DNA of 64,000 nucleotides from the NCBI GenBank assembly GCA_020160935.1, contig JAIUPL010000001.1:62001-126000 (forward strand), written 5' to 3'. The notes under the pieces were generated by a model that ran no database searches, was not told the DNA's origin, and saw only the letters and a program-made list of their open reading frames with translations. The position numbers and the translations under genes are program-made. Positions 6,366 through 53,676 of this stretch are shown piece by piece (within the stretch, counting starts at the first letter, position 1; every line of letters starts with the position of its first letter). The DNA comes from Bacteroidota bacterium (lineage in GTDB: Bacteria > Bacteroidota > Bacteroidia > Chitinophagales > Saprospiraceae).

Positions 6366-6526
6366 GTGGTGAGTAGTGAGTGGTGAGTAGTGAGTAGTGA
6401 GTAGTGAGTGGTGAGTAGAGTGTCCGATAAAAGGCTAAGGATAATCTACTCACCACTCACTACTCACTACTCACCACTCACTACTCACTACTCACCACTC
6501 ACTACTCACCACTCACCACTCACCAC
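6366..6526. repeat. Long inverted repeat element 1 (GTGAGTA words)
   Basis: The left arm is a run of GTGAGTAGT/GTGAGTGGT words (6366-6414) and the right arm its reverse complement (6450-6526). Between them lies the core GTAGAGTGTCC (6415-6425) with a decayed partner GGATAATCTAC (6439-6449). The arms start 2 bp after the YqeY stop and end 1 bp before the lptB ATG, so the element fills the whole gap and would be a giant hairpin in any transcript crossing it. Confidence 0.85.
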
Positions 6527-6527
6527 T

Positions 6528-7265
6528 ATGGTACTTAGAGCAGAAAATATCATCAAGGTATACGGCAAACGCACAGTGGTGCGTGGTGTTTCATTTGATG
6601 TGAAACAGGGCGAAATTGTCGGTTTGCTGGGCCCGAACGGCGCCGGCAAAACCACCTCGTTTTACATGACTGTGGGCTTTATTCAGCCTACCAGCGGAAG
6701 CGTTTACCTTGATACAGAGGAAATTACCACCTTGCCCATGTACCGCCGCGCCCAGAAAGGTATCGGTTACCTGCCGCAGGAGCCCAGCGTATTCCGCAAA
6801 CTCAGCGTAGAAGATAATATCAAGGCAGTGCTGGAAATGACCAAACTCAGCAAAGCCGAACAGGCCGAAAAACTGGAGTCGCTCATCGACGAATTTAACC
6901 TGCACAAAGTGCGAAAAGGCAATGGCGACACCCTTTCAGGCGGAGAGCGGCGCCGCACGGAAATTGCCCGCGCCCTGGCCTCCGACCCACGGTTTATCCT
7001 GCTCGATGAGCCCTTTGCAGGTATCGACCCGATCGCTGTGGAAGATATTCAGTCGATTGTCGCCAAATTGAAAACCAAGAACATCGGTATTCTCATTACC
7101 GACCACAATGTGCAGGAAACGTTGAGCATCACCGACCGCGCCTACCTCATGTTTGAGGGGAATATCCTGAAGGCCGGTACAGCCGAAGAACTGGCCGAAG
7201 ACGAAATGGTGCGCAAGGTGTATCTGGGCAAGCATTTTGTGCTGAAACGGAAGGTGATGGACTAA
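6528..7265 (+). CDS. lptB: LPS export ABC transporter ATP-binding protein
   Basis: A 245-residue ABC ATPase matching LptB, which powers extraction of lipopolysaccharide from the inner membrane with LptF/LptG. Walker A is GPNGAGKTT (about residues 35-43), the signature LSGGERRR (136-143), Walker [16 protein letters not shown] (156-170), and the switch histidine lies in ITDHNVQ (about 193). The run [16 protein letters not shown] is diagnostic for LptB. The start at 6528 is the first ATG after the repeat; upstream in-frame codons are repeat sequence. Other lpt genes are not in the window. Confidence 0.93.
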
Positions 7266-7267
7266 GA

Positions 7268-7317
7268 ATTTACGATTGTAGATTACATCGTAAATCATGT
7301 AATCTACAATCGTAAAT
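7268..7317. terminator. Bidirectional hairpin between lptB and the acyltransferase
   Basis: Two perfect 21-bp arms (left 7268-7288, right 7297-7317, arm ATTTACGATTGTAGATTACA plus T) around an 8-nt loop. It lies between two convergent stop codons (TAA ends 7265, the opposite TGA covers 7317-7319), so it probably ends transcripts from both sides. The octamer CGTAAATC recurs in loop and arm, giving it the same word-built look as the larger elements. Confidence 0.75.
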
Positions 7318-7865
7318 CATAGAATCCCCTGTTCCGGATTCCGCCCCTTTATCCCCTTAAAATAGTTCCAGATATAGGCGATATCGGCGTCCTCATTGCT
7401 GGTAGGCCAGAACAATTTCGGGTCAAAAAACACCTCTTTGGTTTCCCAATTGAATGTACAAAGGCAAATAGGCACTTCTGCCAGTCGGGCGATGTGGTAA
7501 AACCCCGTTTTGAAACGCTCCACTTTGGTTCGGGTGCCTTCCGGCGCTATGACCAGGTGCATGCGTTTTTCGCGGTGAAATGCCTCGACGGTAGCCGATA
7601 CGAAATTGTGGTTTTTGCTGCGGTCGACAGGTATGCCACCCAGCCAGCGGAAAAAAATGCCGAAAGGCCAGCGAAAAATGGTGTGTTTACCCACATAATT
7701 GGCCCTGTACTTACCCGCGCTATTGACCAGCACCCCTACCGGAAAATCCCAGTTGGACGTATGTGGAGCCACCGCAATCACCAGTTTGTCCACTTCCGAA
7801 GGATAGTGTCCTGTAATTTTCCAGCCCCATAAACGGAGCAAACCTTTGCTGATCCAACTGAACAT
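7317..7865 (-). CDS. 1-acyl-sn-glycerol-3-phosphate acyltransferase family protein
   Basis: A 182-residue PlsC-type acyltransferase. The catalytic HxxxxD motif is in APHTSNWDFPVG, the second block is FFRWLGGIPVDRSK and the third is APEGTRTKVERFKTGFYHIA, which together form the active site and glycerophosphate pocket. The start chosen is 7865 (MFSWISKGLLRLWGW), the usual family N-terminus; a longer frame to 7916 adds a basic extension. The exact acyl acceptor (lysophosphatidate or another lipid) cannot be told. It is a single gene, convergent with lptB. Confidence 0.85.
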   Translation of the reverse strand: MFSWISKGLLRLWGWKITGHYPSEVDKLVIAVAPHTSNWDFPVGVLVNSAGKYRANYVGKHTIFRWPFGIFFRWLGGIPVDRSKNHNFVSATVEAFHREKRMHLVIAPEGTRTKVERFKTGFYHIARLAEVPICLCTFNWETKEVFFDPKLFWPTSNEDADIAYIWNYFKGIKGRNPEQGIL

Positions 7866-7924
7866 ATCAGGTCTTTTTTTGGTCGTAAAAGTAATAGACC
7901 TGCGTTCCTTTTGCAATTGGCCTT

Positions 7925-8533
7925 TTACAATTTCAGCAGAGCCAGTTGTGCTACTTCCTTGGCTTTGGGCAGGTTATCATGCGGATTATCCATGGCATCG
8001 AGCGTGATACTCAGCACGGAGTCGCCTTTTTTCACCAGCAGGGTTACGATCGTAGTGCCCCAGAGCGCATCATCGCCCAGGCCGCTCACCGATTCTTCGT
8101 AGGTGTCGCGGCGGTCGCGCTTAAGGTTTTCAAATTGCTGGCTGGAATGCACGCCGGTTCCGTAGTGAAATACCTGTACGACCAGACTGTTGCGGGTAGG
8201 CAGGAAGTTGTTGGCATCTTTTTCATTGTGCGCTTCACGCTCTTTCCAGTCGGGGCGATTCCAGGTGTGCAGGCAAAATGCCTGATTGGGCAACGGGCGG
8301 CTGTTGAGGCTCAGGGCCTTGCCGTCTATATTGAAGATTTTCTGAATTTCTTCCTGTGTGATCAGGTCGCAACCGTGGTCTTTCCAATGGTTTTTACGAA
8401 ATTCCCGTATGGCAACGGTATCGATGCCCCATGCATCGGTCTGTGAGACAGCGGCCGGCTTGTCTTGTTTGCAATTTCCAAAAATGAAGGCCATGAAAAC
8501 GAGGGCTGTCGTAAAAAGCGCAGATCGTAGCAT
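7925..8533 (-). CDS. Hypothetical lipoprotein
   Basis: A 202-residue protein with a type II signal peptide: MLRSALFTTALVFMAFIFGN followed by the lipobox cysteine (GNCKQD), so probably anchored in a membrane facing the periplasm. The mature part has several Trp/His-rich segments (KNHWKDHGCDLI, CLHTWNRPDW) and a C-terminal part resembling small periplasmic sensor-like domains, but I recognise no family. The start at 8533 was chosen for the signal peptide. A minus-strand TATCTTTG box lies at 8585-8592. Confidence 0.75.
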   Translation of the reverse strand: MLRSALFTTALVFMAFIFGNCKQDKPAAVSQTDAWGIDTVAIREFRKNHWKDHGCDLITQEEIQKIFNIDGKALSLNSRPLPNQAFCLHTWNRPDWKEREAHNEKDANNFLPTRNSLVVQVFHYGTGVHSSQQFENLKRDRRDTYEESVSGLGDDALWGTTIVTLLVKKGDSVLSITLDAMDNPHDNLPKAKEVAQLALLKL

Positions 8534-8584
8534 AAAAAGTGTTGTATTGAAAGATTTCGGATGCCTTTTGCGTAAAAAAGCGCG

Positions 8585-8592
8585 CAAAGATA
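8585..8592 (-). promoter_or_regulatory. Promoter -7 box (TATCTTTG) of the lipoprotein gene
   Basis: On the minus strand TATCTTTG matches TAnnTTTG, 52 bp upstream of the lipoprotein start. Confidence 0.55.
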
Positions 8593-8818
8593 CGCCGATC
8601 TAGTGTTTAAAAAAAGGAACACCAAGTGGTAAAAAGGAAGTGATTAAAGCCAATTTTATGCCGAAAAGGCGAAAAAAAGGCCCAAAGTGAAATTGTCCGA
8701 CATTTTGTTCCGAACATTGTGCCGCCTGTCGGGCGCGATTGCCGATATAAAATCGCACATTTGCCCCGACAACTCAAATCATTATCTAACCACCACAAGT
8801 TACAGACAGGATAAAATT

Positions 8819-10393
8819 ATGGCTGAAACCCTCGACACGTCCAAAACCCAACCGAATGCAAAATTTCCGTCCGGCATTCCCTATATTATAGGCAATGAGG
8901 CGGCAGAGCGATTCAACTATTACGGGCTCCGTGCGATTCTGACCACTTTTATGGTGGCGCAGTTTTACAACCCGACAGGCTCCACCGATCCGGCCGTAGT
9001 ACAGGTAGCAGAGGCGACTGCCAATGCTAAAACCCACGATTTCGTGGCCATGACATATCTGTTGCCGATGTTTGGGGGCATGGTAGCCGACTGGTTTTGG
9101 GGCAAATACAAAACCATCCTGTGGCTCTCGCTGGTATATGCACTGGGCAGCACCATGGTGGCACTTTCCGTCAATAGCGAAGTGATGTTTACCACCAGCC
9201 TGATGCTGATCGCACTCGGCGCCGGGGGTATCAAGCCTTGTGTATCGGCCAACGTAGGCGACCAGTTCGATGAGAGCAACTCCAGCCTGATTTCAAAAGC
9301 CTTCGATGCATTTTATGCATCCATCAATGCAGGTTCTGTACTGTCGATCCTGCTGATTCCGTACCTGAAAAAACACTACGGCCCGACGGTAGCATTTGGC
9401 GTGCCTGCTATTGCCATGCTGATTGCGGTGTTGTTTTTCTGGATGGGCCGCAACAAATACCGCCGCGTACCACCTGCCAAAACCGACCCGAATCGTATTG
9501 TGGTGCTGGCAACGGCGTTTCTTTCCCTGTTGGCCAGTTACATCTACTTCGATAAAATACAACACCAGGGCATTGGTTCCGTACTGGGCGCCTGGTTGGT
9601 GCTGGTTATTGTGCTGGCATTCGTATTCAAAAAACAATGGTTTGCCAAACCGGGCAACTTTGTAGGAATCAACCTCTATGCCCTTACCAATGGAGGTTTT
9701 GCCGCCGCTGCCAAAGAGTATGGCGAAGAAACACTGGAAGGTATCAAATCGGTTTGGCGGGTGTTGTCGGTTTTTGCCTTCATCCCGGTTTTCTGGGCGT
9801 TGTGGGATCAAAGTCAGTCGGAATGGGTAGTTCAGGCTTCTAAAATGGACCTCAACTGGCTGGGCATCACCTGGGAGGCTGAGCAAATTTCTTTTGTGAA
9901 TGCCGCCTTTATCCTGGCCTTTATTCCGCTTTTCTCCTTCGTACTTTTCCCGGCGCTCAACAAAGCCGGACTGCGCGTTACACCACTCCGTAAAATTGGC
10001 GCGGGATTCATCCTGACAGCCCTTTCATTCGTGATTATTGCCATCATTCAGGGCTGGATCGACGCTGGTGAGCGCCCCAATATCAGTTGGCAGATTCTGG
10101 CGTTCGTCGTGCTCACTGCAGGGGAGGTACTTATCTCCATCACAGGTCTGGAATACGCCTACACGCAATCGCCTCCATCCATGAAATCAACCATCATGGC
10201 TTGCTGGCTTATTACCGTTACCCTGGGTAACGTGCTTGTATCCGTCATTCAAAACAATATCAAAGACGGCGGCTTTTTTGCACAGTTTCATGGCGCCGGC
10301 TTCTTCTGGTTGTTTACAGGTATTTGCTTCGCAACGGCCATTTTGTTCATGATTATTTCTCCGCGTATCAAGGAACGCAGTTATATTGTTTAG
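8819..10393 (+). CDS. POT-family proton-dependent oligopeptide transporter
   Basis: A 524-residue MFS transporter of the POT/PTR type, importing di- and tripeptides with protons. The N-terminal ExxER-type motif is seen in GNEAAERFNYYGLRAILTTF, the second family signature in LIALGAGGIKPCVSANVGDQ, and about 12-14 hydrophobic helices follow. The start at 8819 (MAETLDTSKTQ) follows an untranslated leader; the longer frame to 8687 has no matching N-terminus. The gene ends at the TAG directly before a GAGAGGT word tract and a strong hairpin. It stands alone. Confidence 0.92.
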   Translation: MAETLDTSKTQPNAKFPSGIPYIIGNEAAERFNYYGLRAILTTFMVAQFYNPTGSTDPAVVQVAEATANAKTHDFVAMTYLLPMFGGMVADWFWGKYKTILWLSLVYALGSTMVALSVNSEVMFTTSLMLIALGAGGIKPCVSANVGDQFDESNSSLISKAFDAFYASINAGSVLSILLIPYLKKHYGPTVAFGVPAIAMLIAVLFFWMGRNKYRRVPPAKTDPNRIVVLATAFLSLLASYIYFDKIQHQGIGSVLGAWLVLVIVLAFVFKKQWFAKPGNFVGINLYALTNGGFAAAAKEYGEETLEGIKSVWRVLSVFAFIPVFWALWDQSQSEWVVQASKMDLNWLGITWEAEQISFVNAAFILAFIPLFSFVLFPALNKAGLRVTPLRKIGAGFILTALSFVIIAIIQGWIDAGERPNISWQILAFVVLTAGEVLISITGLEYAYTQSPPSMKSTIMACWLITVTLGNVLVSVIQNNIKDGGFFAQFHGAGFFWLFTGICFATAILFMIISPRIKERSYIV

Positions 10394-10395
10394 AT

Positions 10396-10470
10396 GTGAG
10401 AGGTGAGAAGTGAGAGGTGAGAGAAGGGCTGCCCGGTGAAGAGCGAAATGTCGGCTACCGGGCAGCCCTT
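10396..10470. terminator. GAGAGGT word tract plus terminator hairpin
   Basis: Right after the POT stop comes a one-sided tract of gtgagaggtgagaag words (10396-10423), then a hairpin with 14-bp arms AAGGGCTGCCCGGT (10424-10437) and ACCGGGCAGCCCTT (10457-10470). The hairpin probably ends the transporter transcript; the word tract is of the kind that forms the arms of the large elements. Confidence 0.7.
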
Positions 10471-10543
10471 CGTATGTAACGCGTATTTTTTTGCTAAAAT
10501 CTGCTGAATTGGTTCAAGGCTATTACATTTTCCTGTGAAGGCT

Positions 10544-10551
10544 TACCTTTG
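10544..10551 (+). promoter_or_regulatory. Promoter -7 box (TACCTTTG)
   Basis: TACCTTTG matches TAnnTTTG, 70 bp upstream of the chosen start of the large secreted protein. Confidence 0.5.
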
Positions 10552-10620
10552 AAGCGTGGCAGCCTGTCCTTCGGCCGGCTGGTGAAAATTTATTTTTACT
10601 ATTCAACAACAAGGCTACTC

Positions 10621-13485: not shown

Positions 13486-13521
13486 ATGCCTCGCTGAATA
13501 TTCAGTTGCGATTAAAACTAA

Positions 13522-13555
13522 ACAAGAGCCATCCCGGATTCGGGGTGGCTCTTGT
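13522..13555 (+). terminator. Terminator of the T9SS protein gene
   Basis: Stem ACAAGAGCCATCCCG / CGGGGTGGCTCTTGT (15 bp, one G-T pair, 4-nt loop) followed by cgtttt, 36 bp after the stop codon. Confidence 0.75.
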
Positions 13556-13579
13556 CGTTTTCAGGAGGTATATCTTAGC

Positions 13580-13724
13580 CAAGCGTTGTTCAGGTGGTAG
13601 AATGGACTTTAGTCCGTCGGGATAGCGCCATTTATGGCGCTCACAACAAAAATAATAATTACAGCGCCATAAATGGCGCTATCCCGACGGACTAAAGTCC
13701 ATTCTACCACCTGAACAACGCTTG
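13580..13724. repeat. Long inverted repeat element 9 (62-bp perfect arms)
   Basis: Left arm 13580-13641 and right arm 13663-13724 are exact reverse complements over 62 bp, with a 21-nt A-rich loop. Within the arm are nested small palindromes (GGACTTTAGTCC; AGCGCCATTTATGGCGCT) and the motif GTAGAATGGAC, which resembles the GTAGAGT core of the other elements. It lies between convergent genes, flanked by a terminator on each side, so termination alone hardly explains it. Confidence 0.9.
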
Positions 13725-13779
13725 CATATCCCTCACCATGAGGCGAAGCCCAAAGGAGTGCCTCAATCCAAAATAAAAA

Positions 13780-13813
13780 CCCCGTTTTCGAGCATTTCGC
13801 TACAAAAACGGGG
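13780..13813 (-). terminator. Terminator of the parvulin foldase gene
   Basis: On the minus strand CCCCGTTTT pairs with AAAACGGGG and is followed by a T-rich run, 25 bp after the stop of the peptidyl-prolyl isomerase gene. Confidence 0.75.
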
Positions 13814-13838
13814 CTAAAAATTCAAAACGCAGGTCTTT

Positions 13839-15827: not shown

Positions 15828-15944
15828 GATTGTAGTCGGTTCCTGTTCCGGGATTCCTGTCCGGTACCAAAAGTCAGGAAGAAACTTGGTGAGAGTCATG
15901 CTGGATAGTGCAGTTTTTTACATGGAAATGCGAAAAAACGGGTG

Positions 15945-15952: not shown

Positions 15953-16056
15953 GAAAAGGGTGATAAAAACGCCCGAAAGCCTTTTGTGTTTTCTCTTTAT
16001 TAACAGGAATTTGATGAAAACGGACGGTGGAGCAGGGTTTGCAGGCCATAAAACAA

Positions 16057-23350: not shown

Positions 23351-23463
23351 TTGTACACTCTACGCTTTGTGCCCTTTGTGAAACCTTGGTGGCCTTTGTG
23401 GTAAGATTTTTTAACCACAAAGGGCACCAAGGTTTCACAAAGGGCACAAAGCGTAGAGTACAC
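23351..23463. repeat. Long inverted repeat element 2 (everted, CTTTGTG words)
   Basis: Arms of about 50 bp, 23353-23402 and 23413-23463, built of the words CTTTGTG and CCTTGGTG. The GTAGAGTACACC core is present but at the outside ends (GTACACTCTAC on the left, GTAGAGTACACC on the right), with the word tracts inside, the reverse of the order in the other elements. It lies between an ArsR gene and a convergent porin gene. The remaining bases 23464-23564 show nothing recognisable. Confidence 0.85.
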
Positions 23464-23564
23464 CGGCGGATGTTTGCATTTCAGCAGCCGACAGGCTGAA
23501 AATCCGTTGTAATCTGCCTACATCCGTTTTCCCATCTCGTCAAAGCGAGGGGAAAGCCGTTACT

Positions 23565-34689: not shown

Positions 34690-35514
34690 ATGTTTGCCAA
34701 TCTCGTTGCCACGCCTTTTGTAGCCCTTTCGCTGGTGTTTTTGTACATGGCCTGGGAGGTCGATTCCGATTATGCCATCTGGATACTGCCCTTTGTACTG
34801 CTGAGCGCGGCGGTGTACATTTTCAGCCCCCAGATCAACTGGTGGTGGTACAGCCGGCATCCGAAAGACCTGTCGGCCGGACTGCGGGCCATGATGGAGC
34901 GCTCGGGCGGACTGTACAGTCGACTGAGCGCGGCGGAAAAACTGCGTTTCCGGCAGCGCGTGGTGCTGTTTACCATGGGCGCCGACTGGGAGCCTATGGG
35001 CTGGCCCGATGAAGAAATTCCGCCCGATGTGCAAACGGCGATTGCGGCGCAGGCTGTGTCGCTCACGTTTGGGCGGCAGCAGTTTCTGTTCGATAAATTT
35101 GAAAAAGTGATTGTGTATCCGGCGCCCTTTTCCACGCCGGAATATCCATTCGACCATGCTTCCGAACTGTTTGCGGCCGACGGCTGCCTCCTGTTTTCGG
35201 CGCGGCAGGTGATGGAGGCATTTATGAATCCTGCGGCCTGGTACAATGTGGCGCTGCACGAATACGCCCGGGTTTTTCACCTCACTTACCCCGACGAGCC
35301 CTGGCCGGCGCTCACGCAGGAAAATATCTGGGAACAACTCGAAGCCGTCAGCGGCATGCCCCGCGGCCATGTGGAATCGGTGATCGGGCTGGCCGGCGTG
35401 GATCCGTTGCCGGTGGCCGTGCACCATTATTTTGTGTTTCAGAAGGCTTTTCAGGAAATACTGCCAGAAGAAACATTAATTTTTGACAAAATATTTTCAA
35501 GTCCTGAGTCGTAA
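34690..35514 (+). CDS. MtfA-like zinc-peptidase family protein with an altered active site
   Basis: A 274-residue protein of the MtfA (Mlc titration factor A) type: an N-terminal membrane stretch (FVALSLVFLYMAWEV and ILPFVLLSAAVYIFS), then the MtfA-like domain with LSAAEKLRFRQRVVLF, QTAIAAQAVSLTFG and EKVIVYP. The family zinc motif HExxH reads ALHEYARVFHL here, so the second histidine is arginine. The region that normally supplies the glutamate ligand (AVATEYFF-like) reads PVAVHHYFVF. A peptidase is therefore doubtful. The last codons (SSPES) and the TAA lie inside the repeat element at 35500. Confidence 0.82.
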   Translation: MFANLVATPFVALSLVFLYMAWEVDSDYAIWILPFVLLSAAVYIFSPQINWWWYSRHPKDLSAGLRAMMERSGGLYSRLSAAEKLRFRQRVVLFTMGADWEPMGWPDEEIPPDVQTAIAAQAVSLTFGRQQFLFDKFEKVIVYPAPFSTPEYPFDHASELFAADGCLLFSARQVMEAFMNPAAWYNVALHEYARVFHLTYPDEPWPALTQENIWEQLEAVSGMPRGHVESVIGLAGVDPLPVAVHHYFVFQKAFQEILPEETLIFDKIFSSPES

Positions 35515-35640
35515 GTCCTGAGTCCTAAGTCTGTAGAGTACACCTATGTATCATTGGTGTCATCAATAATGAATGCCAAAAGTAGATAGGTGTACTCTAC
35601 AGACTTAGGACTCGGGACTTACGACTCAGGACTTACGACT
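35500..35640. repeat. Long inverted repeat element 3 (AGTCCTG words)
   Basis: Left arm 35500-35547, right arm 35586-35640; over the 48 bp they share there is a single difference, and the right arm has one more 7-nt word. Words are AGTCCTG, AGTCGTA and AGTCCTA, followed by the core TCTGTAGAGTACACCTAT. The 38-nt loop holds remnants (ATTGGTGTC, GAATGCCAAAAG) of the loop seen in elements 4-6. It overlaps the end of the MtfA-like gene. Confidence 0.9.
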
Positions 35641-37470: not shown

Positions 37471-37830
37471 ATTTTTTGGGGGATATTGGGTTCGGCTTCG
37501 CCTCACCCATATGGGGGGAAAAGGATAGGGCGGATGACGCGGATAGAGCGGATTTTTTGTGGCCTGACGGCCACTTTTGATTTTTTGATTTTGATTTGAT
37601 TTTTCACCTTCGACGGCAATATCTCCCATCATTTTTTGGGAAGGTGTAAACAAATAATTTGTCAGAGATACCCTCCCATTTTTTGTTTAAACCCATAAAA
37701 ATCAAAAAAAGTGGCCGTCAGGCCACAAAAATCCGCATTATCCGCGTCATCCGCCCTATCCTTTTCCCAAAATATGGGTGAGGCGAAGCCGAACCCAATA
37801 TCCTTCAAACCCAATATCCCCAAAAAAAAT
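37471..37830. repeat. Long inverted repeat element 10 (GCGGATGACGCGGAT words)
   Basis: A very long imperfect inverted repeat. The left arm (about 37471-37592) contains GATATTGGGTTCGGCTTCGC, the CTCACCCATAT segment, AAAAGGATAGGGCGGATGAC and GTGGCCTGACGGCCAC. The right arm (about 37690-37830) has the reverse complement of each, in reverse order, plus a duplicated CCAATATCC. The roughly 100-nt centre has smaller hairpins (CACCTT/AAGGTG). Together they occupy nearly all of the 414-bp gap 37418-37831. I see no gene in it. Confidence 0.85.
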
Positions 37831-39655: not shown

Positions 39656-39796
39656 AGTCCTGAGTCGTAAGTCCTGAGTCCTGAGTCCTGAGTCTGTAGA
39701 GTACACCTGAATACCCATGGCGTTCCTATTTGATAAAGTAGTTGGTATTCAGGTGTACTCTACAGACTCAGGACTCAGGACTTACGACTCAGGACT
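39656..39796. repeat. Long inverted repeat element 4 (AGTCCTG words)
   Basis: Left arm 39656-39715, right arm 39744-39796. They agree perfectly except that the left arm has one extra 7-nt word. Core TCTGTAGAGTACACCTGAAT. The loop starts CCATGGCGTTCC, similar to elements 5 and 6. It fills the gap between the WG-repeat stop and the TPR start. Confidence 0.92.
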
Positions 39797-40841: not shown

Positions 40842-41014
40842 AAGTCCTGAGTCGTACTAAAGTCCTGAGTCGTAAGTCCTGAGTCCTGAGTCCGTAGAGT
40901 ACACCTGATTACCTTTGGCTTTTACTAATGACTAAAGCCAAAGGTAATCAGGTGTACTCTACGGACTCAGGACTCAGGACTTACGACTCAGGACTTTAGT
41001 ACGACTCAGGACTT
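40842..41014. repeat. Long inverted repeat element 5 (81-bp perfect arms)
   Basis: Left arm 40842-40922 and right arm 40934-41014 are exact reverse complements over 81 bp with an 11-nt loop. The arm reads inward as AGTCCTG/AGTCGTA words, then the core GTCCGTAGAGTACACC, then TGATTACCTTTGGCTTT. It fills the gap between the thiolase stop and the WG-repeat promoter. Confidence 0.95.
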
Positions 41015-43715: not shown

Positions 43716-43730
43716 GTTTGAAGTCGTAAG

Positions 43731-43855
43731 TCCTGAGTCCTAAGTCCTGAGTCTGTAGAGTACACCTTTTTACCCTTGGCTTTACTGAATATCGATGCCA
43801 AGGGTAAAAGGTGTACTCTACAGACTCAGGACTTAGGACTCAGGACTTACGACTT
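43731..43855. repeat. Long inverted repeat element 6 (AGTCCTG words)
   Basis: Left arm 43731-43780, right arm 43797-43855, identical as reverse complements except for one T in a T-run on the left and the longer outer end on the right. Core TCTGTAGAGTACACC, then a TTTTACCCTTGGC inner part nearly the same as element 5. It sits between clpP and clpX and ends 9 bp before the clpX promoter box. Confidence 0.92.
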
Positions 43856-43984: not shown

Positions 43985-45283
43985 ATGATCAAGCGCGGTA
44001 AACCTACCCAACATCGCTGCTCTTTTTGCGGCCGCAGCGAACAGGAAGTCATGATACTGGTATCCGGAATGGACGGCCAGATATGCGAGTTATGCACCGA
44101 AAAAGCCCAGGAAATCATCGATCAGGAGTTGCGCAAGGCAGGTGTTCAGCCGGAACGCAACGAGGAAGGTTCGCCCAAGAGCCAGAAATACAGTGGCCCG
44201 ATCCACCTGATTCCGCCGCGCGAACTCAAAACCTTTCTGGATCAGTATGTGATCGGGCAGGATTCTGCCAAAAAAGTATTGTCGGTGGCGGTGTACAACC
44301 ACTACAAACGCCTGCAACAGGGCGCGCGGGTCACTTCCGACGATGTGGAAATTGAAAAATCCAATGTATTGTTCGTAGGCCAAACGGGCACCGGCAAAAC
44401 GCTGATGGCCAAAAGCATCGCCAAACTGCTCAATGTGCCGTTTACCATCGTCGATGCCACCGTATTTACAGAAGCCGGATATGTAGGCGAAGATGTGGAA
44501 AGCATCCTCTCGCGCCTGCTGCAAGTATGCGACTACGATGTGGAAGCGGCGGAGCGCGGCATCGTGTACATCGATGAAATTGATAAAATTGCCCGCAAAC
44601 AGGACAATCCCTCCATCACCCGCGATGTATCGGGCGAAGGCGTGCAGCAAGGCATGCTGAAAATGCTGGAAGGCGCAGAGGTGCAGGTGCCACCGCAGGG
44701 CGGGCGCAAGCACCCGGAGCAGAAACTGGTGAAAGTCAACACGCAGAATATCCTGTTCATCTGCGGCGGCGCTTTCGACGGTATCGAAAAAATCATCGCT
44801 CGCCGGGTCAATACCCAGGTGATCGGGTACAATAAAAAAGAAATTGAACGGGTCGACAAAGAAAACCTGTTGCAATACATCACGCACCAGGACGTCAAAA
44901 ATTTCGGACTCATCCCTGAACTCGTAGGCCGCCTGCCGGTGGTCGTGCACCTCGAACCGCTGGATACCGAGGCGCTGCGCCGCATCCTCACCGAGCCACG
45001 CAACGCCCTGCTGCGCCAGTATGAAAAACTGTTTGCGTATGAAGGCATCGAACTGGTCATGGAACCTGATGCAGTAGAATTGATTGCCGAAAAAGCGCTC
45101 GACTACAAACTCGGCGCCCGTGGACTGCGCTCACTTTGCGAAGCAATCCTGACAGATGCCATGTTCGAATTGCCTACAGGTGTAAAAGGCGGAAAGGAGA
45201 GTAAACGCAAATTTGTGGTCGACCGGGCCTATGCGCAGGAAAAATTGAACCGCTCGCAGTTGGGCAGACTAAAAGCCGCGTGA
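43985..45283 (+). CDS. clpX: ATP-dependent Clp protease ATP-binding subunit ClpX
   Basis: A 432-residue AAA+ unfoldase. The N-terminal zinc finger has Cys12, Cys15, Cys34 and Cys37 (RCSFCG; CELCTEK). Walker A is GQTGTGKT (132-139), the pore loop GYVGED is near 165-170 and Walker B is IVYIDEIDKIA. The sensor segment GGAFDGIEKIIARRV and the C-terminal domain are present. It feeds substrates to ClpP. The start at 43985 was chosen; the upstream frame (MYSTDSGLRTQD) is only repeat sequence. The TGA stop is the first part of the next repeat element. Confidence 0.96.
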   Translation: MIKRGKPTQHRCSFCGRSEQEVMILVSGMDGQICELCTEKAQEIIDQELRKAGVQPERNEEGSPKSQKYSGPIHLIPPRELKTFLDQYVIGQDSAKKVLSVAVYNHYKRLQQGARVTSDDVEIEKSNVLFVGQTGTGKTLMAKSIAKLLNVPFTIVDATVFTEAGYVGEDVESILSRLLQVCDYDVEAAERGIVYIDEIDKIARKQDNPSITRDVSGEGVQQGMLKMLEGAEVQVPPQGGRKHPEQKLVKVNTQNILFICGGAFDGIEKIIARRVNTQVIGYNKKEIERVDKENLLQYITHQDVKNFGLIPELVGRLPVVVHLEPLDTEALRRILTEPRNALLRQYEKLFAYEGIELVMEPDAVELIAEKALDYKLGARGLRSLCEAILTDAMFELPTGVKGGKESKRKFVVDRAYAQEKLNRSQLGRLKAA

Positions 45284-45448
45284 GAGGGTGAGAGCGCGAG
45301 AAAAGTGAGAGGGCGAGAGCGTGAGAATCCGTAGAGTGTGCCGCTCCGATCTAAAAAATAACATGATCGGAGCGGCACACTCTACGGATTCTCACGCTCT
45401 CACGCTCTCGCCCTCTCACTTTTCTCACGCTCTCACCCTCTCACCCTC
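45280..45448. repeat. Long inverted repeat element 7 (GTGAGAGC/G words)
   Basis: Left arm 45280-45351, right arm 45365-45448, differing by one extra word in the right arm and a few changes. Words GTGAGAGGGTGAGAGCG, then the core CCGTAGAGTGTGCCGCTCCG. Loop TAAAAAATAACAT. It contains the clpX stop codon on one side and ends 7 bp before the methyltransferase ATG on the other. Confidence 0.9.
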
Positions 45449-45455
45449 TATTTAG

Positions 45456-46286
45456 ATGTTGGACGTCAAAACCTACTACCAAAACACCCGTTTCGACTAT
45501 CGCATAGTGTGGGGACACCCCGAAAACCTGGCCATGCACTTCGGCTATTACGACGAACATGCCGACAAACACCGCGCTGCGCTCAGCAACATGAACCGCG
45601 CCATGGCCGATCTTGTCGACATCAAACCGGGCGAGCAAGTGCTCGATGCGGGATGCGGGATAGGAAGCGCCTGTTTTTGGCTGGAGGAAAACCGAAATGC
45701 CCAAGTGACAGGAATCAGCATCGTACCTGCCCACATTGAAGACTGCCAAAAAAATGCCCGAAAACGCGGCGCACAAAATACCACCTTCCTGGAAGCAGAT
45801 TTTTGCAAAACCCCCTTCCCCGACGCCACGTTCGACGTGGTGTGGGCCTGCGAAAGCCAGTGCCATGCCGAACGGAAAATCGATTTTTACCGCGAAGCAT
45901 ATCGCATACTCAAGCCGGGCGGCAGATTGATTGTGGCCGACTATATTCGGACAGGCCGACCATTGCCTGCACACAGCGAAACCCTGCTACACGGCTGGCT
46001 GCATCCACAGGCCATTTCCGATATAGATACTCGGGAAGAGCATTTAGCCAATCTCCAATCCGCTGGTTTTCAATCTTTTGAAATAAAAGACGTAACGCCG
46101 AATGTACGCGTATCACTCCGCAACCTGCACGACTTGTGCCGGAAATGGCTCACGATCGGTAAAGTATTGCGATTCCTCGGCATCGTCAGTCAGGTGCGTA
46201 TGAACAACGTGTACGCCAGCATGACCCAGTACAAGGCCCTCCAGGAAAACGCGTGGATGTATGTGATGATCGTTGGCAAAAAATAA
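45456..46286 (+). CDS. SAM-dependent methyltransferase
   Basis: A 276-residue class I methyltransferase of the sterol/tocopherol C-methyltransferase type. SAM motif I is QVLDAGCGIGSACFWL (about residues 61-76), motif II contains FPDATFDVVWACESQCH (about 116-132) and motif III LKPGGRLIVADY. The N-terminus (NTRFDYRIVWGHPENLAMHFGYY) is typical of enzymes that methylate small lipophilic or quinone-like substrates. The substrate is unknown. The start at 45456 is the first ATG after the repeat element. Confidence 0.85.
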   Translation: MLDVKTYYQNTRFDYRIVWGHPENLAMHFGYYDEHADKHRAALSNMNRAMADLVDIKPGEQVLDAGCGIGSACFWLEENRNAQVTGISIVPAHIEDCQKNARKRGAQNTTFLEADFCKTPFPDATFDVVWACESQCHAERKIDFYREAYRILKPGGRLIVADYIRTGRPLPAHSETLLHGWLHPQAISDIDTREEHLANLQSAGFQSFEIKDVTPNVRVSLRNLHDLCRKWLTIGKVLRFLGIVSQVRMNNVYASMTQYKALQENAWMYVMIVGKK

Positions 46287-46289
46287 TAC

Positions 46290-47951: not shown

Positions 47952-47956
47952 GGCGC

Positions 47957-48505
47957 TCAGAATTGAACTTTTACGTTTTGTGTTTCGGCCTCATCCACCT
48001 GGAGGTAGTCCATGCGGCGGAATCCGAACATACCGGCAAACAGGTTGGCCGGAAACATTTCCACCGCATTGTTCAAGTCGCGCACCGACGCATTGTAGTA
48101 CCGGCGGGCGCGCTGGATGCTTTCTTCCAGGCCGCTGAGCGTTTGTTGCAATTGTAAGAATTCCTGGTTGGCTTTCAGATCGGGGTAGTTTTCAGCCAGG
48201 GCAAAAACAGATTTCAGTGCGCCGGAAAGGGCATTTTCAGCCGCGCCGCCGTCTGCCCCGCCTGCCGACATGGCCTGGCTGCGTAGTTGGACGATTTTTT
48301 CCAGCGTACCACTTTCGTATTGCGTGTAGCCTTTGATCGTGCTGACGAGGTTGGGAATCAGGTCGTAGCGTTGTTTGAGAAAAACGTCGATGGATTTCAG
48401 GGCTTCTTCAGCGCCGTTGCGCAGTCCGACCAGGCGATTGTACAGGCCGGCGACGACAATGCCGATAACGACGAGGAGAATGAGGAAAATAAGACCGCTG
48501 CTCAT
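47957..48505 (-). CDS. LemA family protein
   Basis: A 182-residue LemA protein: one N-terminal transmembrane helix (LIFLILLVVIGIVVAGLYNR) and a long helical domain with RNGAEEALKSIDVFLKQRYD, LIPNLVSTIKGYTQYE and YNASVRDLNNAVEMFPANL, all family signatures. It forms an operon with the DUF2207 gene. LemA/DUF2207 pairs are common in many phyla; the biochemical role is unclear. Confidence 0.92.
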   Translation of the reverse strand: MSSGLIFLILLVVIGIVVAGLYNRLVGLRNGAEEALKSIDVFLKQRYDLIPNLVSTIKGYTQYESGTLEKIVQLRSQAMSAGGADGGAAENALSGALKSVFALAENYPDLKANQEFLQLQQTLSGLEESIQRARRYYNASVRDLNNAVEMFPANLFAGMFGFRRMDYLQVDEAETQNVKVQF

Positions 48506-48514
48506 GTTGTTTAG

Positions 48515-48540
48515 TTATTGGTTATCCGTTATTGGTTATC
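48515..48540. repeat. Short direct repeat (TTATTGGTTATC twice)
   Basis: The 12-mer TTATTGGTTATC occurs at 48515-48526 and 48529-48540, just upstream of lemA. It has the simple-word character of the other intergenic tracts but no inverted partner. Confidence 0.55.
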
Positions 48541-48732
48541 AGGGTGGTTGGGGAAATGGGTAAATGTTTTCTTGTACCACTCAGGGACGCAGCGAAAGTG
48601 CAGGTGAATACGATCGTGCCTTTCCATTTTTCAGATGAACGATAGCAAAACATCTGCGAAAATACCTCAAATGAATCATTTCTTTCCAGGAAAGAAGAAA
48701 AGATATAGAATAGTTATGATGGGGAAAACTTA
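48541..48732. other. Intergenic stretch between lemA and the E2 gene, nothing recognised
   Basis: No open frame, tRNA or convincing hairpin was seen between the direct repeat near lemA and the promoter box at 48733. Regulatory sites for the divergent genes may be here but none stands out. Confidence 0.4.
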
Positions 48733-48740
48733 TAATTTTG
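48733..48740 (+). promoter_or_regulatory. Promoter -7 box (TAATTTTG) of the E2 gene
   Basis: TAATTTTG matches TAnnTTTG. If active, the next inverted repeat would lie in the 5' leader of the E2 mRNA. Confidence 0.45.
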
Positions 48741-48756
48741 CGGCGGGTTTATAGGA

Positions 48757-48918
48757 TTGAAAAGGTTGAGAAGTTGAAAGGTTGAGAGGGTTGAGAAGTT
48801 GAAGTGGAGATTCAGCCACATGTGTGATGCGAAATCTCTCACCTATAAAGTGACTGAATCTCAACTCCTCAACCCACTCAACCCCTCAACCCCTCAACCC
48901 ACTCAACATCTCAACCTC
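48757..48918. repeat. Long inverted repeat element 12 (GGTTGAG words)
   Basis: Left arm (48757-48816) of ggttgagaagttgaa words ending in GAGATTCAG; right arm (48854-48918) begins CTGAATCTCAACTCC and continues with ctcaacccctcaac words. The inner core differs from the GTAGAGT type, but the build is the same: words outside, one short core inside. It ends 7 bp before the E2 start codon. Confidence 0.8.
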
Positions 48919-48925
48919 TCTCACA

Positions 48926-50176
48926 ATGCCCGTTATCGAATTAAAAATCCCGAATCTGGGAGAATCCATATCCAGCGTTACTTTTTCCAAATGGCTGAAG
49001 CCGGATGGCTCTATTGTGTCCATGGACGAACCGCTGTGCGAAATTGAAACAGAAAAAGCCAATCAGGAATTGTCGGCCGATTCGGCAGGCAAACTGACCT
49101 GGGTAGCCAAAGAGGGCGATGACCTTCCGGTAGGCGCTTTGTTTGCAAAAATAGACACCGATGCCAGCGGAAGCGCAGGCAGTAGCACACCTGCCCCGGC
49201 TGCCGAAACGCCCAAAACAGAACCAGCGCCGAAAGCCGCCGAACCCGCTACCCAGCAAGCCAACTATGCCACCGGTACGCCTTCGCCCGCTGCTGCCAAA
49301 ATACTGGCAGAAGGCGGCGTAGAACCCACAGCAGTAGCAGGCACGGGTCGCGACGGCCGCATTACCAAAGACGATGCGCAAAAGGCTGTCGAAAACAAGC
49401 CGGCTGCCCCTGCACCACAGGCGCCAACGCCCGCCACACCTGCCCCCGTTGCGCCTGCGCCACAAATCGCTTTCAGCCGCACCGACAACCGCCAGAAAAT
49501 GACCCGCATGCGCCGCACCATCGCCAAACGCCTGGTGAGCGCCAAAAACAATACCGCCATGCTCACCACCTTCAACGAAGTGGACATGAGCGCTTTGATG
49601 GCCTTGCGGGAAAAATACCAGGACGCTTTTGTAAAAAAATACGGCATCAAACTCGGCTTCATGTCGGTATTCGCCAAAGCCTGCGCCAAAGTGCTGCTGG
49701 AAATGCCCGAAGTAAATGCCTTCATCGATGGCGACGACGTTGTTTACCACGACTATGCCGACATCAGTGTGGCCATTTCCACGCCGACAGGACTGGTAGT
49801 GCCTCCGATTCGCAATGTGGAAAGCCTGAATTTTGCGGAAGTGGAACAAAAACTGAAAGAACTCGCAGCCAAAGCCCGCGACGGAAAACTGTCGCTGGAA
49901 GAAATGAGTGGCGGTACCTTTACCATCACCAATGGCGGCGTTTTCGGCAGCCTGATGAGTACGCCGATCATCAACGAGCCACAAAGCGCGATCCTGGGCA
50001 TGCACGCCATCAAGGAGCGCCCTATAGCCGTAGACGGCCAGGTGGTCATCCGCCCGATGATGTACCTCGCACTGAGTTACGACCACCGGATCATCGACGG
50101 TTCTACCTCGGTGACGTTCCTCGTGAAAGTAAAAAACCTGATCGAAGACCCGATTTCTCTTTTAATGGATTTGTAA
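48926..50176 (+). CDS. Dihydrolipoamide acyltransferase (E2 of a 2-oxo acid dehydrogenase, probably succinyltransferase)
   Basis: A 416-residue E2 subunit. An N-terminal lipoyl domain (lipoylated Lys44 in [10 protein letters not shown]) is followed by an Ala/Pro-rich linker, an E3-binding domain ([20 protein letters not shown] to [11 protein letters not shown], about residues 115-155), another Ala/Pro-rich linker and the catalytic domain with the HRIIDG motif (His in [11 protein letters not shown]). The single lipoyl domain and GNxNTAM-like residues ([17 protein letters not shown]) favour the 2-oxoglutarate dehydrogenase E2 (sucB/odhB). E1 and E3 are not adjacent. trhO follows after 5 bp. Confidence 0.9.
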
Positions 50177-50181
50177 AAACC

Positions 50182-51264
50182 ATGGAAGGTACTACTACCA
50201 AAACGCCGAAACGCCCGCTGCACAACCGGGTTAATCGAAGCGAACTCAAGGAACGCATGCGCCAGAGCGATGAGCAGCGTGTGACCCTTTCCTACTACAA
50301 ATACGCGCGCATCGAAAACCCGCAGGCGTTTCGCGACCAGTTGTTTCGACAGTACAACGACCTCGGTGTGCTGGGTCGCATTTATGTGGCCCAGGAAGGC
50401 GTGAATGCGCAGATTTCGGTGCCGCGGGACCAGTTCGAGGCATTCCGCGATTTGATGAATACCTATGAGATGTTTCGCGACATGCGCCTCAATATCGCTG
50501 TGGAAGCCGATGGTAAATCATTTTTTACCCTGACCATCAAAGTGCGCCACAAAATTGTGGCCGATGGCATCGACGACCCTGATTTCGACCCCGCCCGCAC
50601 CGGCACCCACCTCAACGCCGAGTCCTGGAACCAGTTGTCGGAAGACCCGAATACGGTGATTGTCGACATGCGCAACCACTACGAAAGTGAAGTCGGCCAT
50701 TTTGACAAGGCCATTACACCTGATGTGGCCACTTTCCGCGAAGAACTGCCGTTTGTAGCCGATCTGCTGGCCGATGCCAAAGACAAAAACATTCTGATGT
50801 ATTGCACAGGCGGTATTCGTTGCGAAAAGGCCAGCGCCTACATGAAATACCGCGGTTTCGAAAATGTGTTCCAACTGGAAGGCGGCATCATCGAATACGA
50901 CCGGCAGGTGAAGGCCCGGGGACTGGAAAACAAGTTCGTCGGCAAAAACTTTGTATTCGATGAGCGCCTTGGCGAGCGCATCAGCAACGACATCATTGCC
51001 CAGTGCCACCAGTGTGGTGCTCCGGCCGACACGCATGTCAATTGCGCCAATAAATTTTGCCACATCCTGTTTATCCAGTGTGAAAATTGCGGTGCTCAAT
51101 ACCACGGATGCTGCTCGCAGGAATGCGCCGATTTTGTGCAGTTGCCCGAAGAGGTGCAGAAAGAACGCGCCCCTTCGATGGTATTCAACGGATCGAAGTT
51201 CGGAAAAGGGGCGTATAAGGCGTTTCGGAAATCTGGACAGTCTTTGAGAGAAGTGAGAGGGTGA
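50182..51264 (+). CDS. trhO: tRNA uridine(34) hydroxylase (rhodanese family)
   Basis: A 360-residue TrhO (YceA) protein. An N-terminal ferredoxin-like domain (LSYYKYARIENPQAFRDQLF; RIYVAQEGVNAQISV) is followed by a rhodanese domain with the catalytic loop C208-TGGIRC (residues 208-214), then a C-terminal Cys-rich part (CHQCGAPADTHVNCANKFCH; CENCGAQYHGCCSQEC). TrhO makes 5-hydroxyuridine at tRNA position 34 with oxygen. It is probably cotranscribed with the E2 gene. Its last residues (REVRG) and TGA come from the following repeat element. Confidence 0.92.
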   Translation: MEGTTTKTPKRPLHNRVNRSELKERMRQSDEQRVTLSYYKYARIENPQAFRDQLFRQYNDLGVLGRIYVAQEGVNAQISVPRDQFEAFRDLMNTYEMFRDMRLNIAVEADGKSFFTLTIKVRHKIVADGIDDPDFDPARTGTHLNAESWNQLSEDPNTVIVDMRNHYESEVGHFDKAITPDVATFREELPFVADLLADAKDKNILMYCTGGIRCEKASAYMKYRGFENVFQLEGGIIEYDRQVKARGLENKFVGKNFVFDERLGERISNDIIAQCHQCGAPADTHVNCANKFCHILFIQCENCGAQYHGCCSQECADFVQLPEEVQKERAPSMVFNGSKFGKGAYKAFRKSGQSLREVRG

Positions 51265-51420
51265 GAGAGTGAGAGGGTGAGAGAGTGAGAGGGTGAGAGA
51301 TGTGAGAGTCCGTAGAGTGTACCGCTTTACTTGTACAAACACTGTAGTAAAGCGGCACACTCTACGGACTCTCACATCTCTCACTCTCTCACATCTCTCA
51401 CCCTCTCTCACTCTCTCACT
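51252..51420. repeat. Long inverted repeat element 8 (GTGAGAGG words)
   Basis: Left arm 51252-51330 of gtgagagagtgagaggg words, then the core GTCCGTAGAGTGTACCGCTT; right arm 51347-51420 begins GTAAAGCGGCACACTCTACG and continues with ctctcac words. One base differs within the core pair. Loop of about 16 nt. The core and inner part match element 7 (GTAGAGTGT(A/G)CCGCT), so the two form a sub-family. It contains the trhO stop codon. Confidence 0.9.
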
Positions 51421-51489
51421 TGTATTTAGGTTTATCTTCCATTTTTTTCGTTTTTTCGCGGGTCAAATTTTTAAACCGACTGATTCGGC

Positions 51490-53484
51490 ATGTCCAAACA
51501 GCGTAAACCAGCACCCTCGCGTACAGGCGGCAGTAAGCAAAGCGCTGCTGCAACGCAGTCTCTTGCAGCCCTTCCGGATTTTTTCCGCAACACGCTCCTG
51601 CAAAGCGGGCTCATTTTTGCCTTTTCCTTTTTGTTGTATGCCAATACGTTGACGCACGGTTTTGTGCTCGACGATGCCATTGTCATCACCGACAATATGT
51701 ACACCACAAAAGGTGTGGAAGGCATTCCGGGCATATTGTCAAAAGAAACCTTTTTTGGGTTTTTCAAGGTAGAAGGCAAGGAAACGCTGGTGTCGGGCGG
51801 CCGTTATCGCCCCATGACGCTGGTGCTGTTTGCCATGGTGTATCAGGTGGCCGGAGCCAGCCCTTTTGTGTTCCACCTGCTCACGATTTTGTTGTTTGCG
51901 CTCACTTGTGTGGTGTTGTACCGCACTCTCCTGCTGCTGCTGGCGCCGCGTGGCGACGACTATGCCGCCCTGTTTTCATGGCTGGCGGCTTTGTTGTTCG
52001 CAGCCCACCCCATTCATACCGAGGTGGTAGACAATATCAAGGGCTGCGACGAAATTGTCACTTTGCTGGGAAGCCTGGCCACTTTGTATTTTGTGGTGAA
52101 AGCGCATGATTCCGGGCAACAAAAATGGAGTCTGCTGGCGGGTGTGATCTTCTTTTTGGCCTGCTTGTCCAAGGAAAATGCCGTGACGTTTGTGGCGGTG
52201 ATTCCATTGGCTTTGTGGGTATTCCGCGGGGCTTCCGCTGCTGCTATTTTGAAAAACATGGCGCCCGTAGCAGTTGCATTTCTGGCATTTTTCTTTATCC
52301 GTGGTACGATATTGAACTGGAAATTTGGCGGTGCACCGATGGAACTCATGAACAACCCTTACCTCAAACTTCAGGGTAATCAGTGGGTGGCATTTACAGG
52401 CGCTGAAAAACTGGCAACCATTTTCTACACCCTGCTGAAATACGTGCAACTCTTGTTTGTACCACATCCGCTGACGCATGATTATTACCCGCGTACGATT
52501 GACATCATGACCTTTTCCAATGGGGCCGTGCTGTTGAGTGTGCTGTTGTATGCAGGAATGAGCTACTATGCCATTTCGGGTCTTGGAAAACGCGATCCCT
52601 TGCGTTTTGGCATTTTGTTTTATCTGCTTACCCTGAGTATTGTTTCCAATATTGTTTTCCCTATTGGTACCAATATGGGCGAACGTTTTGCATTTATGCC
52701 ATCCGTTGGTTTTTGCATGGTGCTGGCGTCGCTGTTGTACTGGTTCCGTTCTAAAATGAACAACCTGAATGTATTGCTGGGAGTATTTGGAGCCATCATT
52801 GTGCTGTTTTCTCTGAAAACTATTACGCGCAACCCAGCCTGGGCCTCCAACGAAAAACTGTTTTTCTCGGATGTCTCCGTTTCCCGGAAAAGTGCAAAAA
52901 TCCAGAATGCCTGCGGCGGTATTCTGTTCGACCGGGCTACCAAGGAAACCAATGAAGTGCGTCGCAACGAACTGTGCAACCAGGCCCTCTCGCACCTCAA
53001 CCAGGCCATCGAAATTTACCCCAACTACAGCGACGCCTATGTAAGCCGCGGCGGCGCAAATTATTACCTCAAATTATACGACCAGTCCATCTCTGACTAC
53101 CGGCGGGCGGTAGAACTTGCTTCCAGCGACCCGCGATGGAAAACCTACCTGGCCCTGGCCCTCCGCGATGGCGGCCGATACCGGGGAGAACAAAGAGGGG
53201 ATCTGCGGGGCGCAGCCCAATACCTGAACGAATCGTGGCAACTCAACCCCAACGACGCAGAAACCGCCCGACTCATCGGCGTTTCACACGGCGTTTCCGG
53301 CGATAATGCAGGCGCTATCGAATGGTTCACCAAAGCCGTACAACTGGCGCCTAAAGAAGCCATATACCTGTTCGACCTCGGGCAGGCTTATTCGGCTTCG
53401 GGAGACATGGCCAAAGGCGAAGAAATGCGCCGAAAAGCACTGGAAATGGATCCGAAACTGCTGGAGAACAGAGGAAAAAAATAG
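51490..53484 (+). CDS. TMTC-like multi-membrane-spanning TPR protein
   Basis: A 664-residue protein. About ten or more transmembrane helices (from SGLIFAFSFLLYANTL on) fill the first 440 residues, with the acidic DDAIV motif early (FVLDDAIVITDNMY) and AAHPIHTEVVDNIKGCDEI between helices. Tetratricopeptide repeats follow (LSHLNQAIEIYPNYSDAYVS; AIEWFTKAVQLAPKEAIYLF). The order resembles TMTC-type and related glycosyltransferases of the GT-C fold, so lipid-linked sugar transfer to exported proteins is likely, but not proven. The start at 51490 gives a basic cytoplasmic N-terminus. Confidence 0.8.
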   Translation: MSKQRKPAPSRTGGSKQSAAATQSLAALPDFFRNTLLQSGLIFAFSFLLYANTLTHGFVLDDAIVITDNMYTTKGVEGIPGILSKETFFGFFKVEGKETLVSGGRYRPMTLVLFAMVYQVAGASPFVFHLLTILLFALTCVVLYRTLLLLLAPRGDDYAALFSWLAALLFAAHPIHTEVVDNIKGCDEIVTLLGSLATLYFVVKAHDSGQQKWSLLAGVIFFLACLSKENAVTFVAVIPLALWVFRGASAAAILKNMAPVAVAFLAFFFIRGTILNWKFGGAPMELMNNPYLKLQGNQWVAFTGAEKLATIFYTLLKYVQLLFVPHPLTHDYYPRTIDIMTFSNGAVLLSVLLYAGMSYYAISGLGKRDPLRFGILFYLLTLSIVSNIVFPIGTNMGERFAFMPSVGFCMVLASLLYWFRSKMNNLNVLLGVFGAIIVLFSLKTITRNPAWASNEKLFFSDVSVSRKSAKIQNACGGILFDRATKETNEVRRNELCNQALSHLNQAIEIYPNYSDAYVSRGGANYYLKLYDQSISDYRRAVELASSDPRWKTYLALALRDGGRYRGEQRGDLRGAAQYLNESWQLNPNDAETARLIGVSHGVSGDNAGAIEWFTKAVQLAPKEAIYLFDLGQAYSASGDMAKGEEMRRKALEMDPKLLENRGKK

Positions 53485-53676
53485 AAACACGGATTACACA
53501 GATGGGGGACGGATTTTCACAGATTGGATTATTGGTAAGGAGGTATTGATACTTTCTTCTTTGCCCAATCTGTACAAATCCATTCCTAATCCTCGCCATT
53601 TGGTAAAGAAGAAATGCTTCGTTACCAGCAATCCAATCTGTGAAAATCCGTCTATTATCTGCGAAATCCGTGTTTC
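53484..53676. repeat. Long inverted repeat element 11 (ACGGATT/CACAGATT words)
   Basis: The outer arms pair GAAACACGGATTACACAGAT at 53484-53503 with ATCTGCGAAATCCGTGTTTC at 53657-53676, and GACGGATTTTCACAGATTGG with its complement further in; inner parts (TTTCTTCTTT/AAAGAAGAAA) pair weakly. The element runs from the stop codon of the TMTC-like gene to the stop codon of the convergent transglutaminase-like gene, so it lies exactly between two gene ends. Confidence 0.85.

Follow-up and report, generated by a model that had tools for sequence, protein, structure and literature searches.

Intergenic repeats of bacteria are usually filed as repetitive extragenic palindromes (REPs), miniature inverted-repeat transposable elements (MITEs) or tandem repeats. 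REPs of the GTAG type are described as a short hairpin, with a stem of 7-20 and a loop of 2-5, that starts 0-2 nt after a GTAG tetranucleotide (PMC6006769, in the passages cited). Among repeats built of short words, the cited accounts report that GGGAATC heptamers of Xanthomonas form inverted pairs, 70 in one genome and 75 in another (PMC4692102), and describe TAACTGA heptamer arrays from Beggiatoaceae, cyanobacteria and five Bacteroidetes (PMC4679880). Features of REPs, MITEs and tandem repeats are combined in the long hairpins described here, which were followed up from a stretch of 64,000 nucleotides of a Bacteroidota bacterium of the family Saprospiraceae (GenBank assembly GCA_020160935.1, contig JAIUPL010000001.1, positions 62,001 to 126,000 of the forward strand; hereafter the window).

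In a few Saprospiraceae, these hairpins seem to have been copied, swapped and overwritten as units. Exchangeable layers make up each hairpin: 7-9 nt words in the outer arms, a mid-arm core, which in one sub-group is GTAGAGT, and an apical stem inside. The hairpins are dispersed, lie behind stop codons, use species-specific words, have had their centres swapped and their slots overwritten, and have arms that match each other better than they match the orthologous arms. The explanation that we favour, though tentatively and as something short of probable, is that they form a mosaic superfamily of long palindromes, specific to this lineage and situated at gene 3' ends, in which template switching from one hairpin to another would do the copying and overwriting.

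Exchangeable layers, syntenic slots and matched arms

The source genome (G000, 5.84 Mb) carries 158 and 170 copies of the core on its two strands (328 together), compared with 0 and 0 for the reversed control, so that the motif singled out in the preliminary description of the window stands well above chance level across the genome. Long hairpins of any word number 181 in 1.25 Mb of G000, or about 145 per Mb, and fall into about 15 word families (sorted by eye, with author-written patterns), each with its own words and often with its own mid-arm core. GTAGAGT is present in the left arm of 62/181 hairpins and anywhere in 73/181, and most word families lack it; the preliminary description, which took the shared core as the mark of the family, had therefore seen one sub-group of a larger assembly. 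As a defining mark the core was dropped, also in view of the variants TGACC, GGACC, AGACC and CGACC, in which both arms have changed together.

The distance between inward-facing cores depends on the word type. Among 46 such pairs of G000, 25 are spaced 54-57 (mostly AGTCCTG words, those of type A), 10 are spaced 34-35 (mostly CGCAGA words) and 9 are spaced 42-47 (mostly GTGAGAG words, those of type B), with outliers at 61 and 82 (2/46), while five of the six outward-facing pairs are spaced 101-103 (CTTTGTG words). Over all classes taken together, 20 apices contain TTGGCAT, where 1.3 would be expected. The shorter TTGGC is clear in class A and weak elsewhere (24/143 non-A apices vs about 13 expected), and a common TTGGC apex is no longer held as general. 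Cores without paired outer arms were found in 2/146 core pairs, both with extra bases adjoining the core, which leaves insertion of a core unit alone into older word hairpins unsupported.

Because the DNA of relatives is about 72-92% identical, single steps of the process can be read by comparing them. Four genomes were aligned with the window at 34.5-46.3 kb, namely G199, G200, G201 and G202, which were taken as G500, G520, G509 and G516 of the genus set on the basis of equal core counts (and, for G500, the same places as well); the main matches have 72-87% identity and the slot flanks 74-92%, with one match at 100%. The 40842 slot holds AGTCCTG words in G000, AGTGCGAAGTC in G200 and TTGAG words in G201 and G202, and the 35499 slot holds four word types across four genomes. 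At 43721, a T-tract terminator is found in G200, G201 and G202 and a hairpin in G000 and G199, the T-run still following the hairpin in G199. Some slots are occupied in a single genome among those covered (36278 and 42860 in G202, 42192 in G200). At 33 syntenic slots (30 from G199 and 3 from G200), G000 also has a hairpin at 29, and matching over the G000 gap extended by 60 nt either way assigns the same word family to 22, a different family to 10 and none to 1. A new centre within retained outer words is seen at slots #72 and #111, B words surround an A centre at L070 of G199, and partial remains persist at slot #18. Paired arms in the syntenic gaps of relatives, the lack of which would have counted against the preliminary description, are present; that the words often differ had not been foreseen. 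At slot #129 (L147 4805-4869; G000 C24 144805), a GTGTTTT-word hairpin has the palindrome CTCACCCCCCGGCCCCCTCTCC with a 3-nt loop as its centre, and its G199 orthologue has another centre.

The two arms of a hairpin are closely matched. In 61 A-type elements with a core spacing of 56, 1928/2013 outer and core positions form Watson-Crick pairs, whereas 300 reassignments of the right arms averaged 1784 and reached 1808 at most, and for the 17 inner pairs of this type 759/1037 are paired, compared with a mean of 651 and a maximum of 676 on reassignment. Across orthologous slots, divergence between the two arms of a single element was 0.090 (199/2205, loops included), compared with 0.162 (339/2088) between orthologous arms, and the within-element value was the lower one in 16/16 slots.

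A plain transposon fits poorly: the word register of the ends varies, the feet listed reveal no target duplication, no framed transposase was found in 1.25 Mb, and the core almost never lacks paired outer arms (2/146). Template switching between hairpins is proposed. The replicating strand would fold at a hairpin and then switch template. A switch to its own other arm would keep the arms matched, whereas a switch to a distant hairpin, with shared words, core or apex serving as homology, would swap the centre or replace the hairpin entirely. The seed sites may have been ordinary terminator hairpins that followed genes, and slippage would lengthen the word arrays. In quasi-palindrome correction by template switching, copying from arm to arm turns imperfect palindromes into perfect ones. 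The proposed process has this arm-to-arm copying in common with quasi-palindrome correction, which differs in being known as a local mutation and not as a spread of hairpins between sites.

Several points weigh against template switching. Neither a copying intermediate nor an enzyme was seen. The case for seeding by a terminator comes from one clear slot (43721), and even convergent gaps that hold no hairpin seldom have a T-tract terminator (18/104 ends). Outside class A, the apex counts point weakly to an apex able to guide switching, and the confinement of the core excess to 6/42 genus genomes is unexplained by the copying model. The arm comparison took 16/22 same-family slots (#16, #18, #111, #116, #127 and #129 were left out), and low divergence between the arms of an element is partly expected because the hairpin finder selects paired arms. 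A difference of the same sign would also result from selection on pairing or from insertions that occurred independently once the species had split. Almost all slots outside the window were taken from contigs picked because of the core, which favours core classes.

A wider form of the proposal, possible but doubtful, is DNA spread within a genome without any transposase, in which gene-end hairpins would serve as docking points: there the machinery of replication or repair would change over to a second hairpin and copy it back. Terminators would in this way have become, throughout the genome, an interbreeding population of hairpins, with words that are concerted within species and turn over between species. 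The hairpins make three ideas testable, namely spread without a transposase, gene 3' ends as copying hot spots, and retention of a gene-end structure while its sequence is replaced.

The hairpins of the window

Word-built arms of degenerate 7-9 nt words, an inverted repeat and an intergenic position, as claimed for eight elements by the preliminary description, were found at 8/8 sites. In line with the earlier judgement that the design is far from chance, the hairpin finder returned 12 matches in the window, while each of 20 dinucleotide-shuffled versions returned 0. The preliminary description had given GTAGAGT(A/G)(C/T)(A/G)CC or a near form as the core of seven of the eight; paired, this core is present in six (35499, 39656, 40842, 43721, 45280 and 51252). 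No strand is assigned to any of the hairpins.

Type A is represented by four elements with core. The one at 35499..35640, in a convergent gap, has AGTCCTG words, the core GTAGAGTACACC and a paired inner stem, and G200, G201 and G202 carry other word types in its slot; the word hairpin at 39656..39796 follows; the element at 40842..41014 has arms of 81 nt that are 100% paired, in a slot that holds AGTGCGAAGTC or TTGAG words in relatives; and the element at 43721..43855 is the one whose place is taken by an ordinary T-tract terminator in three relatives. Two B-type elements with GTGAGAG words lie at 45280..45455, with the core GTAGAGTGTGCC, and at 51252..51420, with the core GTAGAGTGTACC.

The two remaining elements of the eight have no paired core. 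The hairpin at 6365..6527, which fully occupies the gap between a gene end at 6363 and a gene start at 6528, is built of GTGAGTA/GTGAGTG words; its core-like GTAGAGTGTCC is a GTGAGTA word extending into the loop, and since it is unmatched in the opposite arm, the element was excluded from the core members. The hairpin at 48757..48918, rightly described as lacking the core, has GGTTGAG words and imperfect arms (75% paired) and is not among the finder's matches. Three further hairpins had been overlooked: a D-type element at 23352..23464, the seventh core hairpin, with the GTAGAGT core facing outwards and CTTTGTG words within; a core-less word hairpin at 37475..37809 with CGGATAGAG / GCGGATGACG words and nested arms; and another at 53477..53683 with ACACGGATTACACAGAT words.

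At gathering score, Rfam recognised tRNA alone in the window, and no RNA family matches the hairpins. The window also holds, at 13580-13724, a perfect 62-nt palindrome with the small internal palindromes GGACTTTAGTCC and AGCGCCATTTATGGCGCT; it is not word-built, resembles C17 111070 and looks like a separate repeat family.

Gene ends, transposases and nucleases

Genes were called with our own hexamer-based caller. By these calls, 0/178 merged hairpins of the 1.25 Mb are intragenic, as the preliminary description had stated for its copies, and stop codons often lie inside an arm. A hairpin is held by 68/163 convergent, 86/595 tandem and 18/159 divergent gaps; 156/228 stop-facing hairpin ends lie at -30 to +20 nt from the stop codon, and in tandem gaps 75/87 hairpins are closer to the upstream stop than to the downstream start. 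This place behind stop codons and the convergent excess agree with selected gene-end devices, either bidirectional transcription ends or mRNA 3' caps, in which selection would maintain a hairpin with paired arms in each slot, irrespective of sequence. Continued occupation of slots despite word change and the conserved pairing of arms would also be in line with such devices, as would the lower frequency of T-tract terminators (simple rule) where a convergent 3' end has a hairpin (5/136) than where it has none (18/104). In tandem gaps, however, these terminators are about equally rare with (5/86) and without (28/374) a hairpin, and 95/163 convergent gaps have no such hairpin. A run of at least four T is present at 25/362 hairpin feet and missing at 337/362, so that of the transcription end device considered in the preliminary description the position fits and the T-tract does not. 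Selection alone, moreover, cannot spread one word family to dozens of sites, and few hairpins are present in other genus members (8 in 362 kb of 16 genomes). As an account of the whole, gene-end devices are decidedly unlikely. In the host, the hairpin would most likely act as an mRNA 3'-end structure or be tolerated as one.

The main rival to template switching is movement by a Y1 (IS200/RAYT-type) transposase of the REPIN kind. The hairpins would then be REPIN-like elements that travel as single-stranded hairpin DNA, with the GTAG heading the core as the guide tetranucleotide, a possibility that we consider unlikely. Y1 transfer leaves no target duplication. The first letters of the core are indeed GTAG, and in class A, though in no other class, conserved inverted ends at a near-fixed distance (54-57 in 25/46 paired cores) enclose a variable paired spacer with two-sided changes, as the cited passages describe for REPINs (PMC3116915). 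Y1 genes number 2-6 in all five core-rich genomes searched and are absent from the core-poor genus mates G040 and G141, a comparison that covers just these two Y1-free genomes. Most word families, however, are without GTAGAGT. The RAYT-type partner with matching ends that the preliminary description envisaged did not appear at the 11/15 Y1 loci (five genomes) that were read with their flanks: several adjoin other repeats, none lies beside a paired core or these word hairpins, and one has a lone GTAGAGT within 600 nt. A short hairpin behind GTAG (stem 7-20, loop 2-5, 0-2 nt past GTAG) was found in 0/61 elements at a setting that likewise misses the control repeat; with loops of 2-6 and both halves included, it was found in 1/122 half-elements at a stem of at least 7 and in 3/122 at a stem of at least 6, where the control is found.

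Two Y1 loci of G000 have repeats of their own. At L032 1486-2007 (C29), a REP-associated Y1 transposase gene has GTAGTTGGCGAGGACGCCAACTAC repeats on both sides and represents a separate REP system in the same genome. At L031 1195-1410 (C42), a GGGCGTTGCCCT palindrome within ACATACGAAT / AACGATG word arrays precedes an IS200-type Y1 gene, whose orthologues have the same repeat type beside them in G200 and G202 and not in G199.

Miniature inverted-repeat transposons of the classical kind, mobilised by a DDE transposase, would likewise be palindromic, dispersed, high in copy number and patchy by species, and in places distant inverted pairs of word arms enclose genes. The dispersal and copy number thus suit the miniature mobile element suggested in the preliminary description, whereas its other attributes do not appear. 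By eye, the feet of seven word families (up to 22 each) revealed neither a defined terminal inverted repeat nor a target site duplication, the word register at the ends varying. Among eight distant inverted pairs in 1.25 Mb, word arms frame just one gene, which encodes an ABC ATPase. Four enclosed genes, none of them small, were scanned and include 0 transposases, and no autonomous partner with the same ends was recognised in the 1.25 Mb covered of the 5.84-Mb genome. Unrelated families occupy the same slots, and IS110-type genes do not track the hairpins. A DDE-driven origin is very improbable. One further distant inverted pair, not of word arms, frames a GH18 gene.

The ABC ATPase gene (L114 12416-14158; G000 C14) has short inverted arrays of B words close by on both sides, neither of which forms a hairpin of its own, and a C-type hairpin adjoins. 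Elsewhere (L109 2874-8936; G000 C17 182874-188936), inverted GGATT-family arms stand 6 kb apart around reverse-transcriptase and TIR/FGE-sulfatase genes, perhaps a defence island. Reverse transcriptases were rejected as a driver, being present in G000 (4) and G141 (1) alone of 7 genomes, and so was IS110, with one gene each in G199 and G201 and none in G000.

The distribution of the hairpins is narrow. An excess of the core is seen in 6/42 genomes of the genus set (328, 328, 125, 83, 35 and 22), the remaining 36 having at most 10, and among the 199 genomes drawn from Saprospiraceae as the family set, G000 has 328 cores and the next-highest 13. A scan of named genomes for the core gave, among the matches listed (at least 67), Saprospiraceae or Bacteroidota metagenome-assembled genomes exclusively. 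Hairpins of any word number 0 in 80 kb of G040 and G141, 3 in 400 kb of 14 family genomes (these two included) and, across 362 kb from 16 other genus members including the 22-core genome, 8, several with words absent from G000. Viral contigs contained no core pair and no similar DNA was matched in phages or plasmids, and carriage by either was set aside. CTTTGTG words are matched in 101/296 genomes, yet a long hairpin was present at 2/30 fetched loci, one of them in G000, and the words were not retained as a sign of phylum-wide word hairpins; 20 further stretches, near CTTTGTG words or from G125, gave 7 hairpins at the usual score. Two loci (L295 and L296) of G506, a genus member without core excess, have word hairpins of their own, GGTTGACGGGTTAGCGGG and GGTGGACGGTGGACGG, 4 in 40 kb, possibly an independent outbreak.

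The nuclease SbcCD removes palindromes in other bacteria, and its loss might have allowed hairpins to build up passively. Canonical SbcD (above the model cut-off of about 200 bits) was found in 10/20 genomes searched and in 0/5 core-rich ones. However, the genus mates G040 and G141 are also without it and have 0 hairpins in the 80 kb, as are G042, G112 and G143, with 0 in 20 kb each. In G199, adjacent Mre11-like and Rad50-like genes (L222 5858-9432), with best scores against archaeal models, stand in place of canonical SbcCD. Because core-poor genus mates lack SbcD as well and G199 has this pair, the loss would be at most permissive; it cannot spread word families, and as an explanation it is extremely improbable.

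Comparison with known systems

No description of exchangeable layers or slot overwriting was found in the open-licence PMC literature searched. The closest known kinds are REPINs and heptamer inverted repeats. As far as the cited passages describe them, REPINs and GTAG-tagged REPs of Pseudomonas and others are likewise intergenic, present in hundreds of copies, with inverted GTAG-headed ends at near-fixed spacing, a paired variable spacer with compensatory changes, and a position mainly downstream of genes (PMC3116915; PMC3733652, which treats GTAG and CGTC REPs). Unlike REPINs so described, the hairpins reported here have no short GTAG hairpin in each half and have long word-built arms outside the core; they also comprise many word families, exchangeable cores and slots overwritten between species, and no adjoining RAYT gene was found at the Y1 loci read.

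MITEs are also short, non-coding, palindromic and dispersed, whereas here the whole arm is the repeat, and no defined terminal repeat or target duplication was seen in the feet listed. Like the Xanthomonas heptamers, the elements are intergenic arrays of degenerate tandem words, 7-9 nt here and 7 nt there, some of them forming inverted pairs; the Xanthomonas repeats differ in having one G-rich word type, and in the passages cited no core or apex layer is described (PMC4692102). The TAACTGA arrays, according to the cited text, are similarly species-patchy intergenic arrays of 7-nt words, some of them across stop codons, but they are direct repeats mostly before start codons and not hairpins behind genes (PMC4679880). 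In the Saprospiraceae hairpins about 15 word families coexist, among which outer words, cores and centres are exchanged, in slots that are conserved while their contents change.

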